A stretch of DNA of 39,792 nucleotides from Euryarchaeota archaeon TMED99 (GTDB lineage: Archaea > Thermoplasmatota > Poseidoniia > Poseidoniales > Poseidoniaceae). The stretch is taken from the NCBI GenBank assembly GCA_002170315.2, contig NHFA02000051.1, forward strand, positions 5,774 through 45,565, read 5' to 3'. This document shows, piece by piece, positions 5,250-26,754 of the stretch (its first letter is position 1; each line of letters opens with the position of its first letter). A model generated the notes under the pieces. It had not been told where the DNA came from and ran no database searches. It saw only the letters and a list, made by a program, of their open reading frames with translations. Position numbers and translations under genes: made by a program.

Positions 5250-5843
5250 TCAATTTTCATCAGCGCCGTTCGAACAGTCCCATTCGCCATCGTTGACAAA
5301 CATCTCAGGTACTGCTTCTCCATTGCCACAATCAAACCACCCGTCTGCGACAATATCACCTGTCTCAGCAAACACAAAGATGAACACAAGCCAGAATATC
5401 TGAGGTAAAACAGTTAGAACGAGGGAAACAAGAGAAATAATCCAACCGGCCTTTACCATTCCTGCGTCTTTGTGTCCTTCCATATGTTGAATTTTTGAAC
5501 GGCTCATATAGGCCAAAATAACTGCTGGAATTACGAAGAGAAGATTACACAATCCAAAGAGAGGAACCCAAGCACCACCAAGTGCACCCATGAGAGCCAA
5601 TCCTGCAAAAACAATGGCGACAATAGCAATCGTGTTTGTCTCCGCATTTGCCTGAATTGGAATATATTGCTGGCCCGGCTGGTTTACAATTATTCCATCA
5701 TCGACCTCATCCATGAATGAGTCCAATTCGTCTTCCACTCCCCATTCAAATTCTCCATCGCAATGTGGGCACGCAAATTCGCCAACTGCATCATCATCTA
5801 GCTCAATTTCTTCTTCACAATGAGGACAGAGTATTTCGACCAT
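5250..5843 (-). CDS. Zinc-ribbon + DUF4190-like membrane protein with C-terminal LDLa-like motif
   Basis: N-terminal CPHCEEEIEL...FACPHCDGEFEWG, 3 TM segments, C-terminal WFDCGNGEAVPEMFVNDGEWDCSNGADEN. Start at MVEILCPHC (5843). Confidence 0.7.
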   Translation of the reverse strand: MVEILCPHCEEEIELDDDAVGEFACPHCDGEFEWGVEDELDSFMDEVDDGIIVNQPGQQYIPIQANAETNTIAIVAIVFAGLALMGALGGAWVPLFGLCNLLFVIPAVILAYMSRSKIQHMEGHKDAGMVKAGWIISLVSLVLTVLPQIFWLVFIFVFAETGDIVADGWFDCGNGEAVPEMFVNDGEWDCSNGADEN

Positions 5844-5865
5844 GAGCCCATTTTTGCATGTTTCC

Positions 5866-5879
5866 ATTTAAAATTATAG
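5866..5879. promoter_or_regulatory. Candidate TATA-like element in divergent intergenic region
   Basis: AT-rich atttaaaattatag about 25-30 nt upstream of the minus-strand start at 5843, consistent with a leaderless archaeal promoter; not verified. Confidence 0.35.
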
Positions 5880-7917: not shown

Positions 7918-10900
7918 ATGACCTCGCCTAATAAAATCTCAATTCGTAGCCAAAGTGTACTGCTCATCTTCATCTTACTTTCATCCGGAATGCTTGGAAT
8001 CCTTCCGATTCAATCCGTCGATGCTGATGCTGGACGTTCGACCGGTACTGAGACACTTACCGTTGATGTGCTCGGAGATTATTACGACCGTGGAACAAAT
8101 ATGACCTTGGTTGCAACGGCATCGAATTTGGACACAACTGCAGAGTATGCACTCGAATACACGTTGTGCAGAGCCACGGGAACTTGGGATGATGAAATGG
8201 AAGTCATGAATGTTGAATGTACTGAATGGTTCGACCAAGTTTCCGGTACTGTGGATTTAGGTTCAGGAAACTTAGTGTCACTTTCAGCAACCTCAATTGC
8301 CGATACTGGATGTTGCGATAACTCAAACTCCGCAGAAAACTTTGACAACGGAACAATGATGTTTTTGGTAAATCTCACTTCTCAAAGCATTCCAATTGCA
8401 TCCGAATCCACTGAACTCTTCGCTTTGGGCAGTGAGGTCGTTGGTATGCACCTTGGCGTTTCAAACAAGGACATTCTTTTGGGAATGGATTACGGTGTTC
8501 ATGCTTTCTTTGATTTAGAGTATTGGAACCTTGAAGTACTGTCTCATTCGGTTAATTGCTCTTTAATCGACCCCAACGGCACTGCTGTTGATTCAACAGT
8601 TAAGATTTGGAATGGTGATTATGATATTGTCGACCCTTATTTCGATCTTGTGGCAACTGGTGAAGGAATGCATTATCCACATTGTGATTTGATACGAAGT
8701 GCCGATTCGACAATTCTTGCAAGTCAAATCGGAGCATCATTCGATGTTATTGACAGTGATTATTCTGGCTATGAGGCAGTGAGTGGACAGACCGATACAA
8801 TCCTGTATGAGCATAACGATACCGTCTCTCTCACCGTTCCTATGACAAATTTGTTTATCGGTGCTGAATACGTTTTGACATACACTATGTGTTACACACA
8901 TGTCTACTACGACAATCACATTCGAGATTATGTTCTTGAATGTGGCGCTGATGTACGGTATGGTCTGCTTGATGATCCTTTGACCACGACAGTCGATGAG
9001 TCCGAAGTAATTTCTTTCCAAGGCGAGATAACGTTCACACCAACTGCTTCTACTCATGTTGAGCAACTCACATTCACACTGCCGAGTTGCTGTGGTGATG
9101 AAAAAGCTCAGTTCAACAACAATGAAATGCTCAGTGTCAACTCACTTGAAAACGAATCTCTCACTTTTGACTTAGATATCAGCACTCGCAATGTGAGTCT
9201 TGACGCCGATATTTCCAACACCTTCATTCTTGGAGGAGAGGTCGTAAATGACCATCTAAACTTCCAACGCAATCGAATATTGATTGGCATGAACTCAGTC
9301 TCGCACAGCCGTTGGACTTTGGACACAATGAACAGTTTCACGCTTTCCTACACCATTCAATGCAGTTTATTCAACAGCACAGGTGTTGCAGTGGACAACC
9401 GTACCTCTACATGGAGTCACAACGGTCACCCAGCAGTTGATGTTGGACTCTACCCACCAACTCCGGGTACTTTCCACACAGAATGTAACTTGACTCGAAA
9501 CTTGGACAGCAAGTTTATGGGAAGCCAAACCAGTGGAATTATTACTGTTCTGGATGAAAATTACACGGGTAATGAACGTCATTCAATCACAACCGATTCA
9601 GTTTTCTATCCTCACAATTCAAGTATTGGGCTGAGTATTGAAACGACCAATATGTATCCCGGTACAACCTACACGATTGAATACACCATGTGCAGTGTTG
9701 AAACAGATTATGAAGACGGAATCTTTGAATCCGAATGCAAGGGTCAACCTTCCACTTCTTCTTACAATATCCCTGCTGAAAACCAAACTCTTCTCTCAGG
9801 TAGTATCGACTTTACGCCAACCAGTTCATCATACACAGAAGTGGCCTATATCACCGTACCTGAATGCTGTGGAAATTATGCCAACAATGTGTCTTGGTGG
9901 TTTGAAAACTCTTCTGTTGGGTTGAAGTCGCGCTACTTTATTCAAGATGTCCAATTAAACAGTCCACAAGATGAGAGTAATTACTTCGGTATTGGCGGTA
10001 GTGTTGAATCTTCACAAATGCTTCATTCTTCGTTCCAACTGTTACCAAACATGAATGTCTATATCGATATGCTTTGGATGCTTGACCACCGTAATGAGTT
10101 TATTCAGACCTACCAAGAACAATGCAATTTCTTCGATGCTTCAGATGATTCAATACTCGATTCTACGACGGCTACATGGAACCATCGACCAGAACAAGTC
10201 AACACCATGAATTCGGTGTTCTCGCCGCCAGGAGAGGGTGAGTATTATGTTGAATGTTCATTGACACGTGTGGCTGATTCTACTGTTCTCTCAACCCATA
10301 GAGGTGATGACATTACCGTGCTTCCACCACTTGGCAGTCAAGATGATGCAACCATTAGCGTCAACGCAATGGTGAAACCTGATGGATGGGCACTTGTGTT
10401 GGTTTCAATGGCTGAACTTGACGCAGGTCAACAATATTCCTTCACATGGGATGTCTTGGATGTCTCTACTGGTACTGGGACTGTGATGGATTCAGGCGAA
10501 TACACGTGGGTTGAAGGAACGGATTCAACCGAGAATAAGATTCTCGAATTTAATGCGCTTGCGGATTCCACATTTGCCTGCATTTCAGTCGAATTGAGTG
10601 CTGCTGATGAAGTTCTCGTTACACTCAATGACACCTCTTCTTCCTCCAATCTATGCTGGATACAAAACTCAGTTTCTGACATTGATTCAGATGGAGTTTA
10701 TGATAAAGATGACGAGTGTCCTGCAACTCCATACGGTAGTATCGTTCAATTGAATGGATGTTCCGATACTGACCTTGATGGCTGGGATGACAGCGTTGAA
10801 ATTGATTGCAATTCCGATTTCCAAAACCCTACCTCGGTTCCAGTGGATTATGATCAAGATGGAATCTGCGACCCGATGGATGATGATGATGACGACGATG

Positions 10901-11445
10901 GTTTTACCGATGAAATTGAGTATCTTCGAGGAACCAACCCGTATGATTACAATGATTTCCCAATCAACCAATTGCCAGTATGCACCTTCTATTACACTCT
11001 TGAGATCGATGGGATGCCGGCTGCGAACGCCCTTTCCGGAGATGTTGAAGTTTCCACATTGGTAATCGGTTCATCTTCGGTTCCAAATCTAGGAACGGGT
11101 ATCACACCGATTCTAACGGTTCCTTCTGGAGATTATTTCCTCATCGTATCGTGTCAAGATTTGGACAATGACCCTGTAACGATATCTGTGAATGATGTCG
11201 TTGTTGGTCCTGCACTCGGAGAGGTTACTGCTTCCGCAATAATCACGCTCTCTGCTGACATTTCAGAGTCTGTTGATGCGAACATCACATGGAGTGATGG
11301 AACCAACTCAGCAACCACTCTTGTCACTGTGAATCTCGAAAATACATCTGCGCCTGCGACGTATCTCCCTGGTTTTACTGCATTCATCGGCATGCTCGCT
11401 CTTTTGGGAGCAACCGTTGTTTCCAGAAAATCCAGCGACGAATAA
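7918..11445 (+). CDS. Large secreted/surface protein with three internal repeats, TSP3-like acidic segment and PGF-CTERM-like tail
   Basis: Signal peptide SVLLIFILLSSGMLGILPIQSVDADA; three homologous ~250-aa segments with conserved CC and C pairs; DIDSDGVYDKDDECP...DYDQDGICDPMDDDDDDDG; C-terminal LPGFTAFIGMLALLGATVVSRKSSDE. Confidence 0.8.
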   Translation: MTSPNKISIRSQSVLLIFILLSSGMLGILPIQSVDADAGRSTGTETLTVDVLGDYYDRGTNMTLVATASNLDTTAEYALEYTLCRATGTWDDEMEVMNVECTEWFDQVSGTVDLGSGNLVSLSATSIADTGCCDNSNSAENFDNGTMMFLVNLTSQSIPIASESTELFALGSEVVGMHLGVSNKDILLGMDYGVHAFFDLEYWNLEVLSHSVNCSLIDPNGTAVDSTVKIWNGDYDIVDPYFDLVATGEGMHYPHCDLIRSADSTILASQIGASFDVIDSDYSGYEAVSGQTDTILYEHNDTVSLTVPMTNLFIGAEYVLTYTMCYTHVYYDNHIRDYVLECGADVRYGLLDDPLTTTVDESEVISFQGEITFTPTASTHVEQLTFTLPSCCGDEKAQFNNNEMLSVNSLENESLTFDLDISTRNVSLDADISNTFILGGEVVNDHLNFQRNRILIGMNSVSHSRWTLDTMNSFTLSYTIQCSLFNSTGVAVDNRTSTWSHNGHPAVDVGLYPPTPGTFHTECNLTRNLDSKFMGSQTSGIITVLDENYTGNERHSITTDSVFYPHNSSIGLSIETTNMYPGTTYTIEYTMCSVETDYEDGIFESECKGQPSTSSYNIPAENQTLLSGSIDFTPTSSSYTEVAYITVPECCGNYANNVSWWFENSSVGLKSRYFIQDVQLNSPQDESNYFGIGGSVESSQMLHSSFQLLPNMNVYIDMLWMLDHRNEFIQTYQEQCNFFDASDDSILDSTTATWNHRPEQVNTMNSVFSPPGEGEYYVECSLTRVADSTVLSTHRGDDITVLPPLGSQDDATISVNAMVKPDGWALVLVSMAELDAGQQYSFTWDVLDVSTGTGTVMDSGEYTWVEGTDSTENKILEFNALADSTFACISVELSAADEVLVTLNDTSSSSNLCWIQNSVSDIDSDGVYDKDDECPATPYGSIVQLNGCSDTDLDGWDDSVEIDCNSDFQNPTSVPVDYDQDGICDPMDDDDDDDGFTDEIEYLRGTNPYDYNDFPINQLPVCTFYYTLEIDGMPAANALSGDVEVSTLVIGSSSVPNLGTGITPILTVPSGDYFLIVSCQDLDNDPVTISVNDVVVGPALGEVTASAIITLSADISESVDANITWSDGTNSATTLVTVNLENTSAPATYLPGFTAFIGMLALLGATVVSRKSSDE
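8053..10332 (+). repeat. Three degenerate intragenic protein-level repeats (about 8053-8790, 8791-9591, 9592-10332)
   Basis: Aligning blocks: YALEYTLC/YVLTYTMC/YTIEYTMC; TGCCDN/PSCCGD/PECCGN; VNCSLIDPNGTAVDST/IQCSLFNSTGVAVDNR/EQCNFFDASDDSILDS; HCDLIRSADSTILAS/ECNLTRNLDSKFMGS/ECSLTRVADSTVLST. Confidence 0.75.
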
Positions 11446-22622: not shown

Positions 22623-25352
22623 TCATTCCTTTGGCTGGAATGCATCTGCAGAAGGTGGTGCCATTGGTCGTTGAACTGAGTTTTCTTCGCTCATGAATTG
22701 TTGAGTTTGATGTTCAAAAGAATCCCATTCGTCTTGGTCACTGGTTGATTGCTGTCTCTGAAACAGCAGCACTCCACCACCGAGAAGTGCTGCTAAGAGT
22801 CCTATTCGAAGAATCAAATCAAACCAAGAATCCATGTTTTTGTTATCTGGAAATGGGTCATAGGCATTCGCAATTCCGTCACCGTCTGTATCGTATTGAG
22901 CATCTGAATCAAAGGGAAACACATCGGCATTATCACCGATTCCGTCGCCATCTGAATCAAGCCACTCGTAAGCGCTGAACGGAAATGCATCAGCATTATC
23001 GCCGACCCCATCATAATCTTGGTCGTAGCATTCAAGAGAATTGTTTGGCCAAACATCGATGTTATCTCCACAACCATCACCATCAGAATCTATCCATTCT
23101 GTGGCGTCATTCGGAAACACATCGCCATTATCCCCGACACCGTCACCATCGGTATCGTTCCATTCGTTTGAATCATAGGGAAAGACATCTCTGTTGTCGC
23201 CATAGGAGTCATTGTCTCTGTCGGCCCAGTCGCTTGGATCATCTGGGAACAGGTCTGAAAAATCTCCTACTGAATCATTGTCTCGGTCATTCCATTCGTT
23301 TTCATCAAGAGGAAATGCATCAGCAACGTCTCCAAACCCATCACCGTCGCTGTCTATACATCCAAGGGGGATCAAAGCATAGCCTTGCTCGAAAGGGCAT
23401 TCATCTTCGTTATCTCCATAGCCGTCAAGGTCAGTATCTGCCCATTCTGTACTGTCAACAGGAAAGACGTCTGCATTATCGCCGACACCGTCTTCATCAA
23501 CGTCATTACAATCGACAGGGTCGTTTGGAAACAGGTCGGAATTATCACCACAGCCATCACCATCTGAATCTGCCCATTCACTGCCATCAAGTGGGAATGC
23601 GTCATCTCCATCTGATACGAAATCATCATCTGTATCATAATCTCGCTTATCGGTGCCTATGGCGATTTCATCTGCATTTGAAAGTCCGTCACCATCGGTA
23701 TCGTCATCTTCGATATCATGGCACCCATCGTCGTCCAAATCATATGCATGAACACCAATCAATCCCTTCGGACAATTATCGGTATCATCTTCGATACCAT
23801 CATTGTCGTCATCAAGGTCGACCTCATCACTGCAACCATCTTCATCATAGTCCAATGAAGATTGTGAGAATGGACAGGGGTCAATAGAGTCATTGAGTCC
23901 GTCACCATCGGAGTCACGTTGAGAGGCAGAGCATCCATTTTCGTCGACACTCTCACCAAAACCAGTGTTTGGACACGAATCCAAAAGATTCAGTACACCG
24001 TCGTTATCCTCATCTTGTTGTTCCCAAGAACAACCGGTAAGGTTGGTGGTTGAAATCGATACTGTCCAGGCGCATGTATCGTAGAGGTTGATGACGCCAT
24101 CTCCATCAGTGTCAGGTTCACCTACGCTTTCGACAGCGTATCGGCCGATGAAACGGTGCATCACTCGAGTTGGATGTGCTTTGTCAAAGAAAAGATATTG
24201 GTCAACGTTTGAAGCAACCGTATCACCACTGCTGCAAATAGGAAGTGGGAGAAGGGAGACTCCTCCGGAACAAGCAGCATCCTGAACATTCGACAGTCCA
24301 AGCGACTCTTTGTTTTGTAAAATATCGTTAAAGATTGCCCATGCATCGATTGAATGGATAGTGATTCCTAATTCTGCACGCAGGTCTGAAACAAGGGTTG
24401 CTAACTTTTGGTTGTACAGGACGACTTCTGAAGCGATGTTGTTCTGCTGATTTTGACTGCGACTCATGACCTCAGGAGTACTTTCCAGCGGTGGAAGATT
24501 CGGTATGATAAATTCATCAGCACCCGCTCCTTCAAGTTGGCGAATATGTGCTTCCATATTGGTTGCAATCGTATTGGCATTTCCAGTTCCATAGAGGAAA
24601 TCATTGCCACCAGACCAAAGTGAGACGACAGCACTCGAGGGAATTGTAGCTTGAACATTGGCGAGGTAGTTGCTTATTTGAGTCCCGACATTTGGTAGCA
24701 GAACATAGGAATATCCTGCTCCGGTTTGTGAACCACCGAAAGCTCGGTTATCGCCTGCGGAATTTCCAGAACCAATGGTTGTTGTCAATCCGTATGCATC
24801 AGACATGTATTCAAGCCAAACTTGACCGTTTGAAAACCGCCCTTGCCAGTATGGAGGTACATCAGGTACGTTGAGGATTGAGTTCTTTCCATTCCCCATA
24901 TCACTTAATGAATCTCCAAAGGCGATGAGATTTGATGGTGCTGTTACCACGGCATTTTCAAAGACAGTGAAAGCGTGTTGCTCATCATTCAGGATATTGT
25001 TTGAAGAATCCTGTATCTCTACTTCAAACAGATAAAAATGGGCACCGTTGTAGAAGTGTTTGAGTGGAATTTGAAATTCAGTCACAGTTCCAGATGCAAG
25101 AAAAGAATGTGTTCCGTTGAGAAGGATCACGCCACTTTCGTCGTCGACAAGAGTCCAATCTGCGAAGAGGTCGATACTGTAAGGAGCATTGGTAATTTCA
25201 ACGGTGATCGATACTGTTTCATTTGAAAGCCAATCGAACTTGGCGGTAGAGAGCACGACAGTTGACGAGCGTCCTTCAGCCATCACGACACAAGAGCTGC
25301 TTTGCAGCAGCACCATGGTGATGAGGAAGAAAACAGTCTTGCGCACATGCAC
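22623..25352 (-). CDS. Secreted SGNH/GDSL-family hydrolase with TSP3-type repeats, acidic 22-aa repeat array and C-terminal TM anchor
   Basis: IAFGDSLSDMGNGKN (block I), GGNDFLYG (block III), FDKAHPTRVMHRFIGRYAV (block V DxxH); many DxDGDGxGDNxDxFP repeats; TM LILRIGLLAALLGGGVLLF. Track start 25421 overlaps SRP54; likely GTG at 25352 or 25346 followed by signal peptide. Confidence 0.87.
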   Translation of the reverse strand: MHVRKTVFFLITMVLLQSSSCVVMAEGRSSTVVLSTAKFDWLSNETVSITVEITNAPYSIDLFADWTLVDDESGVILLNGTHSFLASGTVTEFQIPLKHFYNGAHFYLFEVEIQDSSNNILNDEQHAFTVFENAVVTAPSNLIAFGDSLSDMGNGKNSILNVPDVPPYWQGRFSNGQVWLEYMSDAYGLTTTIGSGNSAGDNRAFGGSQTGAGYSYVLLPNVGTQISNYLANVQATIPSSAVVSLWSGGNDFLYGTGNANTIATNMEAHIRQLEGAGADEFIIPNLPPLESTPEVMSRSQNQQNNIASEVVLYNQKLATLVSDLRAELGITIHSIDAWAIFNDILQNKESLGLSNVQDAACSGGVSLLPLPICSSGDTVASNVDQYLFFDKAHPTRVMHRFIGRYAVESVGEPDTDGDGVINLYDTCAWTVSISTTNLTGCSWEQQDEDNDGVLNLLDSCPNTGFGESVDENGCSASQRDSDGDGLNDSIDPCPFSQSSLDYDEDGCSDEVDLDDDNDGIEDDTDNCPKGLIGVHAYDLDDDGCHDIEDDDTDGDGLSNADEIAIGTDKRDYDTDDDFVSDGDDAFPLDGSEWADSDGDGCGDNSDLFPNDPVDCNDVDEDGVGDNADVFPVDSTEWADTDLDGYGDNEDECPFEQGYALIPLGCIDSDGDGFGDVADAFPLDENEWNDRDNDSVGDFSDLFPDDPSDWADRDNDSYGDNRDVFPYDSNEWNDTDGDGVGDNGDVFPNDATEWIDSDGDGCGDNIDVWPNNSLECYDQDYDGVGDNADAFPFSAYEWLDSDGDGIGDNADVFPFDSDAQYDTDGDGIANAYDPFPDNKNMDSWFDLILRIGLLAALLGGGVLLFQRQQSTSDQDEWDSFEHQTQQFMSEENSVQRPMAPPSADAFQPKE
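22838..23636 (-). repeat. About twelve tandem 66-bp (22-aa) acidic repeats, consensus D.DGDG.GDN.D.FP.D..EW.
   Basis: For example DVDEDGVGDNADVFPVDSTEWA, DSDGDGFGDVADAFPLDENEWN, DRDNDSYGDNRDVFPYDSNEWN, DTDGDGVGDNGDVFPNDATEWI: constant 22-aa register except one 28-aa unit. Confidence 0.85.
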
Positions 25353-25383
25353 GCTATGCGTCCTTGCTTGAAAGCAGTTCGCT

Positions 25384-26754
25384 TCACATTCCGAACGATG
25401 AAGGGTCGATATCCATATCACCGTCTTTCATCATCTTGCGCATCTGCTTGTTCAACTTGCGATTTCCACCCATGCCCTTCATCATCTTACGTGAGCGGTT
25501 CCACTGAGCAATCAACTCACGGACATCTTTCTCACGAACCCCAGCGCCACGAGCAACTCTTCGGATTCTGTCAGCTTTGATCTTTGCAGGCTCATTCTTC
25601 TCCCATGCAGTCATGCTGTCCATTATTGTACGATAGCGGTCAAGGTTACCCTGCATGGCCTCTTTTTGGCCTTTGGACATTGCACCCATTCCTCCAAGCA
25701 TGTTCCCTGGCAAAAACGACATGAGTTTGTCAATAGTGCCAACTTTTGACATCATCTCCATTTGTTTATACATGTCATTGAGCGTAAATCGTCCACTCAT
25801 CAAGCGTTGGGTTAGTCGCATGGCTTCTTCTTCATCCATGTCTTCAGGAGCCAAATCGATGAGGCCCTGAATATCTCCCATTCCAAGGAGCCGAGAGATG
25901 AATCGGTCGGATTCGAATTTTTCAAGGTCAGGAACATTTTCTCCTGTTCCGATGTGAACAATCGGCGCTCCAGTTGCGGCGACAGCAGATAATGCACCAC
26001 CGCCTCGAGCAGTTCCATCCAGTTTGGTGATAACAATGCCAGTCACGCCGGCAAGAGAGTGGAACGAAGCGGCAACTGGTCCTGCGGCTTGGCCGACTTG
26101 AGCATCGATAACCAACCAACGTTCACTGGCTCGCGTAATGGATGAGATTTGTTCCAATTCATCGACCAATTCTTGATCGAGTTGATGCCGTCCAGCCGTA
26201 TCAACAATGACCAAATCAGCAGCAGCACACGCTGCTAATCCATTGCGGACAATGGTTGGTGCATCTTTTGTCTCAGGTTCGCCATAGACTTGAACTGTCG
26301 AATCTTCTAACAACTGCGTAAGTTGAGCATAGGCACCAGGACGGTGAACGTCAGCTTCAATCACCGCAACACGCAATCCATGCTTTCGTCGATACCATTC
26401 AGCTAATTTGGCAGTTGTTGTGGTTTTTCCTTGACCATACAATCCTACGAGTAGAAGCGTTGCGCCATGGGGTTGAAACTCATGAGCAGGGCCGAGCATT
26501 CGAACAAGTTCTGTATAGAGAATGTTCATTGCATGCGTTTGCAGATTAATACCTGGACGAGGCTCTTCGTCTCGAAGACGTGCCTCCATCTTTTCGACTA
26601 AATCCTTCGTTTGTCGAACGTTAAAATCCGCTTCTTGCAATGCTCTGCGAAGACTGCGCGTCATTTCACGTAGTTCTTCTTCATCCAACTTGCGTTTATT
26701 CTTGAGCAACCCAATGGAGCGGAAAATACCCTTTGAGAGGCCTTCGAGTGCCAT
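25384..26754 (-). CDS. srp54: Signal recognition particle 54 kDa protein
   Basis: LLVGLYGQGKTTTTAKLAEWYRRKHGLRVAVIEADVHRPGAYAQL, DTAGRHQLDQELVDELEQI, TKLDGTARGGGALS, Met-rich M domain. Confidence 0.96.
   Translation of the reverse strand: MALEGLSKGIFRSIGLLKNKRKLDEEELREMTRSLRRALQEADFNVRQTKDLVEKMEARLRDEEPRPGINLQTHAMNILYTELVRMLGPAHEFQPHGATLLLVGLYGQGKTTTTAKLAEWYRRKHGLRVAVIEADVHRPGAYAQLTQLLEDSTVQVYGEPETKDAPTIVRNGLAACAAADLVIVDTAGRHQLDQELVDELEQISSITRASERWLVIDAQVGQAAGPVAASFHSLAGVTGIVITKLDGTARGGGALSAVAATGAPIVHIGTGENVPDLEKFESDRFISRLLGMGDIQGLIDLAPEDMDEEEAMRLTQRLMSGRFTLNDMYKQMEMMSKVGTIDKLMSFLPGNMLGGMGAMSKGQKEAMQGNLDRYRTIMDSMTAWEKNEPAKIKADRIRRVARGAGVREKDVRELIAQWNRSRKMMKGMGGNRKLNKQMRKMMKDGDMDIDPSSFGM

Follow-up and report, generated by a model that had tools for sequence, protein, structure and literature searches.

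An open reading frame that runs from ATG to stop over exactly positions 7918–11445 (+) of the window, i.e., the whole 39,792-nucleotide stretch of DNA that was analysed, encodes a 1175-residue protein of a Candidatus Poseidoniaceae (Marine Group IIa) archaeon, whose named relatives fall in Candidatus Poseidoniales/Poseidoniaceae. With a probability of about 0.6, we read this protein as an accessory adhesin or ligand-binding surface protein that is anchored by archaeosortase A (ArtA) and borne on a calcium-binding stalk. Pointing to this reading is the combination of a signal peptide, a sorting tail, the presence of ArtA, the stalk, the beta-sandwich repeats, the restriction to a single lineage and an accessory distribution. 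In such a protein, the signal peptide would direct export, ArtA would process the PGF tail to yield a membrane tether, and the acidic thrombospondin-3 (TSP3)-like segment, probably stiffened by seawater calcium, would serve as a stalk holding out a rod made of three double (A + B) beta-sandwich repeats and a fourth A-type domain. The old repeats, each conserved in its own right, would then probably act as separate units for spacing or for binding, whether of glycans, particles, partner cells or the protein itself. Counting against this reading are the TSP3 and PGF matches of the protein itself, which fall below the curated cut-offs, the low structural similarity scores of its repeats, and the fact that Ig-like folds serve many roles; nor could a function be assigned from a ligand, a catalytic motif or a partner gene.

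Marine Group II comprises the most abundant planktonic archaea of the surface oceans, which are uncultured (PMC6461757). Thrombospondin genes are widespread in Poseidoniales, and cell adhesion has been proposed as their role (PMC6461757). The family described here offers candidates for the anchor, the stalk and the binding head that might be expressed and tested.

Architecture, export and anchoring

The architecture of a surface protein is well supported and comprises, from the N- to the C-terminus, a signal peptide, three repeats, an A'-type domain, a TSP3-like stretch, a membrane-proximal domain and a PGF-CTERM-like tail. The first-pass annotation had picked out the repeats, which stand, but missed everything beyond residue 846, i.e., the A'-type domain, the D.D.DG segment, the membrane-proximal domain and the stalk-and-sorting-tail arrangement, and it was also without the Ig-like fold class, the CC motif as an optional vicinal pair and the presence/absence pattern; its epithet "giant" is generous for 1175 residues. 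The signal peptide (residues 1–36; 7918–8025, +) has a hydrophobic core at about residues 11–30, with the 19-residue hydropathy windows above 1.5 starting at residues 7–17. Export, which had been proposed from the outset, is supported by this peptide, the PGF-type tail, an acidic composition (15.5% D+E versus 2.5% K+R) and the genomic ArtA.

Immediately after the repeats comes the fourth, A'-type beta domain (residues 847–917; 10456–10668, +; LDAGQ.Y...W.V and TWVEGTDS), which shows a weak hhalign match to domain A of the repeats (76.8%, E 2e-5 over 26 columns) and has beta strands in a full-length AlphaFold2 model that is itself poor (overall pLDDT 64). The succeeding acidic segment (residues 918–1016; 10669–10965, +) carries four D.D.DG motifs and is the best conserved part of the protein among the orthologues. 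As its matches to TSP_3 (16.6 bits) and TSP3_bac (13.0 bits) both lie under the 25-bit cut-off, it is, to judge by its motifs, better called TSP3-like than a Pfam-level TSP3 member; it is probably a calcium-binding stalk. Elsewhere in the window, thrombospondin type 3 repeats accompany a GDSL lipase domain in a 932-residue protein (22623–25421, −).

The membrane-proximal beta domain (residues 1017–1145; 10966–11352, +) and the tail are conserved together in 28/146 Poseidoniales genomes. The tail (PGFTAFIGMLALLGATVVSRK; 11353–11442, +) carries a PGF motif, then a hydrophobic transmembrane helix and a basic RK. While it scores 15.7 bits against the PGF-CTERM model TIGR04126 (cut-off 24.5), the orthologues L012 and L014 score 28.0 and 24.4 bits, and the PGF is invariant in 15/15 relatives aligned. 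The genome has an ArtA gene (G000:C48:52088-52939; 93.2 bits, cut-off 75), which lies on the same contig as the surface-protein gene at a distance of about 35 kb.

Three old repeats with a predicted beta-sandwich fold

The three repeats, at residues 40–284 (8035–8769, +), 285–562 (8770–9603, +) and 563–846 (9604–10455, +), align end to end, with lengths of about 245, 278 and 284 residues that run slightly above the ~250 claimed earlier for the three copies. Their Smith-Waterman scores (235 for repeats 1 and 2, 288 for 2 and 3, and 164 for 1 and 3) compare with shuffle means of 37–38, corresponding to z values of 28, 40 and 22, respectively, with 0/500 shuffles per pair reaching the real score. 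Self-alignment thus bears out the internal similarity on which the first-pass annotation depended (z 22–40). The signature motifs that it listed are also present with small departures: Y.L.YT.C appears in repeats 1, 2 and 3 as YALEYTLC, YVLTYTMC and YTIEYTMC; the CC motif as GCCD, SCCG and ECCG, with repeat 1 having G rather than the T proposed before the CC; the CSL....AVD region as CSLIDPNGTAVD, CSLFNSTGVAVD and CNFFDASDDSILD, with the third copy deviating from the pattern; and (H/E)C.L.R..DS as HCDLIRSADS, ECNLTRNLDS and ECSLTRVADS. In a tree of 35 repeats, the copies cluster by repeat position and not by genome, the placement of the long-branched copies of L014 being unsure. This supports a triplication that predates the split of the three-repeat orthologues, in keeping with the old internal triplication originally surmised.

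Searches of Pfam, NCBIfam, PHROGs and PDB sequences returned nothing above cut-off over residues 40–846; accordingly, the earlier failure to recognise the module holds against these libraries, and no known Pfam domain accounts for the repeats. A TQ ester-bond domain was considered and set aside (E 0.21, under cut-off). The AlphaFold2 model of repeat 2, built from 35 sequences, is all beta (pLDDT 89.1, pTM 0.80); its strands could form two sandwiches, the CC lies in an inter-strand loop, and each repeat is read from this model as two Ig/FnIII-like sandwiches, A and B. Domain B does not appear to be a copy of domain A, to which it has no profile similarity (hhalign 0.2%). The PDB neighbours of the repeat model found by Foldseek are multi-domain beta-sandwich proteins, among them factor XIII barrels, RbmA, PECAM-1 and InvE, with E values of 1e-6 to 1e-8; on the strength of the model, these matches would denote a fold class and not a family, and homology is not demonstrable from them. 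The inclusion of a biofilm-matrix protein (RbmA), a cell-adhesion protein (PECAM-1) and a bacterial adhesin (InvE) among them (TM 0.3–0.45) favours the adhesin reading. A viral link drawn from the structural matches was rejected as generic beta-sandwich similarity to viral proteins. The repeats contain 16 N-glycosylation sequons versus 11.0 expected, an excess that is not significant (p 0.067).

Cysteine pairs and the optional CC motif

Each repeat has six cysteines that occupy the same alignment columns in all three copies, with the adjacent pair at residues 132–133 (8311–8316, +), 391–392 (9088–9093, +; in the inter-strand loop of the model) and 650–651 (9865–9870, +). Across the family, C1 and C2 occur together in 54/54 repeats covering domain A, and C5 and C6 are kept as a pair in 46 repeats and missing as a pair in 3. 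Of the 54 domain-A repeats, 30 have the complete CC, 23 have neither of its cysteines and a single divergent one has just one of them. Since the pair comes and goes as a unit, a vicinal disulfide, a rare kind of bond, is implied; the state of the CC needs about three changes on the repeat tree, and the independent evidence therefore amounts to a few events rather than 54. The retention of C1 and C2 in the 23 repeats that have neither CC cysteine indicates that the CC is not required as their partner, which disfavours bonds between the CC and C1 and C2. The simplest reading of these patterns is three separate disulfides per repeat, C1–C2, C5–C6 and the vicinal CC, whereby C1–C2 would pin a hairpin of domain A, C5–C6 would staple domain B, and the two CC cysteines would bond with each other in a loop of domain A. 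In repeat 2, the predicted pairs would be C325–C342, C482–C523 and C391–C392. Pairwise co-retention in this way lends weight to the earlier suggestion of disulfides in an exported protein.

The possible roles described for vicinal disulfides are ligand binding, stabilisation of structure and conformational switching; where they contact a ligand, it is usually through the undecorated face of a ring, and they may function on mobile loops (PMC12102755). Domain A might, on a long shot, be an archaeal lectin-like module of a new kind, whose glycan site would have the optional vicinal disulfide as its floor, with CC and CC-less repeats recognising different algal or microbial glycans. Whatever its role, the CC, present in some repeats and lacking in others, offers an unusual chance to compare natural forms of one domain that differ in having a probable vicinal disulfide.

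Distribution and the CC-less arrays

The repeat profile finds matches in 30/171 genomes of the family, spread over 7/11 genera, and in 11/293 genomes sampled across the phylum, all of them Poseidoniaceae, with none among these 293 lying outside that family. Full or partial three-repeat orthologues are present in 10/63 genomes of the genus; as many of the genomes are 60–90% complete, such counts of absence are approximate. No phage or IMG/VR homologue of the repeat was found, and a viral or mobile origin was rejected.

This sparse distribution bears on whether the protein might be an S-layer-like structural coat, i.e., an Ig-like array that self-assembles into a protective lattice and is anchored by ArtA as in haloarchaea. 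S-layer proteins often have repeated Ig-like domains, the logic of export and anchoring would be identical, and the tail end of L012 also matches the models of ArtA-dependent S-layer glycoproteins. A main coat protein, however, should be nearly universal, whereas only those 10 of the 63 genomes of the genus carry the three-repeat form and the site is empty in most of the examined congeners; nor does NCBIfam give an S-layer family match across the whole protein. A coat of this kind is hence unlikely, and the accessory adhesin or ligand-binding protein is preferred.

Other Poseidoniaceae have CC-less repeat arrays (L016–L019, L026 and L113–L118), whose repeats are homologous to those of this protein (E down to 1e-82) and several of which share its C-terminal module. 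They differ in having no CC and a C1–C2 hairpin shorter than that seen here, and in that the copies within one protein are most alike, suggestive of concerted evolution, unlike the position-wise grouping of the three-repeat orthologues. Contigs often break inside the repeats, mostly in the CC-less ones (L114–L116, L118–L121 and L124–L126). The likeness within proteins and these breaks are both as expected of homogenised longer arrays, and suggest that the CC-less arrays are long, nearly identical and uncrossable by short-read assembly. A distant relative (L025/L128) has LDL-receptor-A-like stretches (C.DGS.I...DC.DGSDE) inside its repeats, and a small protein in the window (5250–5867, −) has weak matches to DUF4190 and LDL-receptor class A (22.2 bits, cut-off 24.1).

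Genomic context, selection and allele replacement

The surface-protein gene lies between conserved housekeeping genes that are colinear across the orthologue-bearing genomes: on one flank are genes for an acyl-CoA dehydrogenase, an HhH-GPD protein, an HD-domain protein, a 3-hydroxyacyl-CoA dehydrogenase (a name read from the sequence and not from a domain scan) and g6770, and on the other those for an SDR enzyme, an IF5A-like protein and an ATG22-like MFS protein. This context may be set against the possibility that the protein is a surface binding module for polymeric nutrients, either proteins or polysaccharides, that supplies an uptake system. Poseidoniales have indeed been described as degrading peptides, with lineage-specific capacities to break down and transport sugars and peptides (PMC6461757), and vicinal disulfides can touch sugar rings (PMC12102755). 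Nevertheless, the conserved neighbourhood, made up of the two dehydrogenases, the SDR enzyme and the IF5A- and ATG22-like proteins, has no clearly linked transporter, glycosidase or peptidase, and we consider a role in nutrient capture very unlikely.

Among 20 congeneric loci around IF5A, 16 have no room for the gene, two have unrelated genes in its place, one is rearranged and one ends too early on its contig; these loci were picked mostly from genomes lacking the gene and so display the empty site and not its frequency. At one locus (L050:2979-7877, genome G059), two large reading frames that look nuclease- or helicase-like by eye occupy the position of the surface gene between the SDR gene and g6770; at another (L063:2402-5197, genome G043), its site holds a predicted 932-residue lipoprotein with an HExxH-type motif (HEYVH). 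On the tree of the flanking genes, presence and absence need three changes. The window MFS gene is 95% identical to that of L037 and 71% to that of L036, while for the surface protein the corresponding values are 69% and 83%; the flank tree is thus itself touched by recombination and was left out of the dating of gain or loss.

The closest orthologues are 83–86% identical with a dN/dS of about 0.05, and in close pairs, where synonymous sites are near saturation, dN is 0.08 in the surface protein versus 0.075 in its neighbours. The protein is under purifying selection in these pairs, and a general tendency to rapid or diversifying evolution is rejected for them, L043 (genome G008) standing apart. 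At this locus, the SDR and IF5A-like proteins are 85% and 99% identical, and the flanks are little more diverged than those of L035, yet identity falls to 34% in the surface protein and the upstream neighbour gene, g6770, is missing, a combination that makes replacement of the allele by recombination likely. Presence and absence at a colinear locus, together with this probable replacement, might be taken as the mark of an exposed decoy or receptor that is kept polymorphic at one site, through gain, loss and allele replacement, by the pressure of viruses or grazers. The closest pairs, however, evolve no faster than their neighbours and so give no sign of an arms race; that the repeat has no viral homologue is informative about viral origin only. 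A decoy or receptor is thus improbable relative to the accessory adhesin or ligand-binding protein.

Comparison with known systems

Apart from the CC-less arrays, three known kinds of protein come closest. The TSP3-bearing surface proteins of Poseidoniales (Rinke et al., PMC6461757) belong to the same order, have a D.D.DG TSP3-like segment and have a proposed role in adhesion; thrombospondin genes are counted in the available part of that text, which does not describe the repeat module, and the TSP3 match of the present protein is below the Pfam cut-off. With the PGF-CTERM/ArtA substrates, such as the haloarchaeal S-layer glycoproteins (TIGR04126, TIGR04216), it has in common a signal peptide, the PGF motif, a transmembrane helix, a basic end and an ArtA gene in the genome; it differs from them in its unrelated ectodomain and in being accessory rather than universal, and its tail is below the cut-off that its orthologue L012 passes. 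To the tandem Ig/FnIII-like adhesins and matrix proteins Vibrio RbmA, Yersinia InvE and PECAM-1 it is alike in its predicted tandem beta-sandwich domains (by Foldseek), the identity of 7–12% and TM of 0.3–0.45 to the repeat reflecting only the fold class. The repeat module is a coherent, previously uncatalogued family, absent from the public domain libraries and restricted to Poseidoniaceae, within a known kind of surface protein rather than as a new kind of system.
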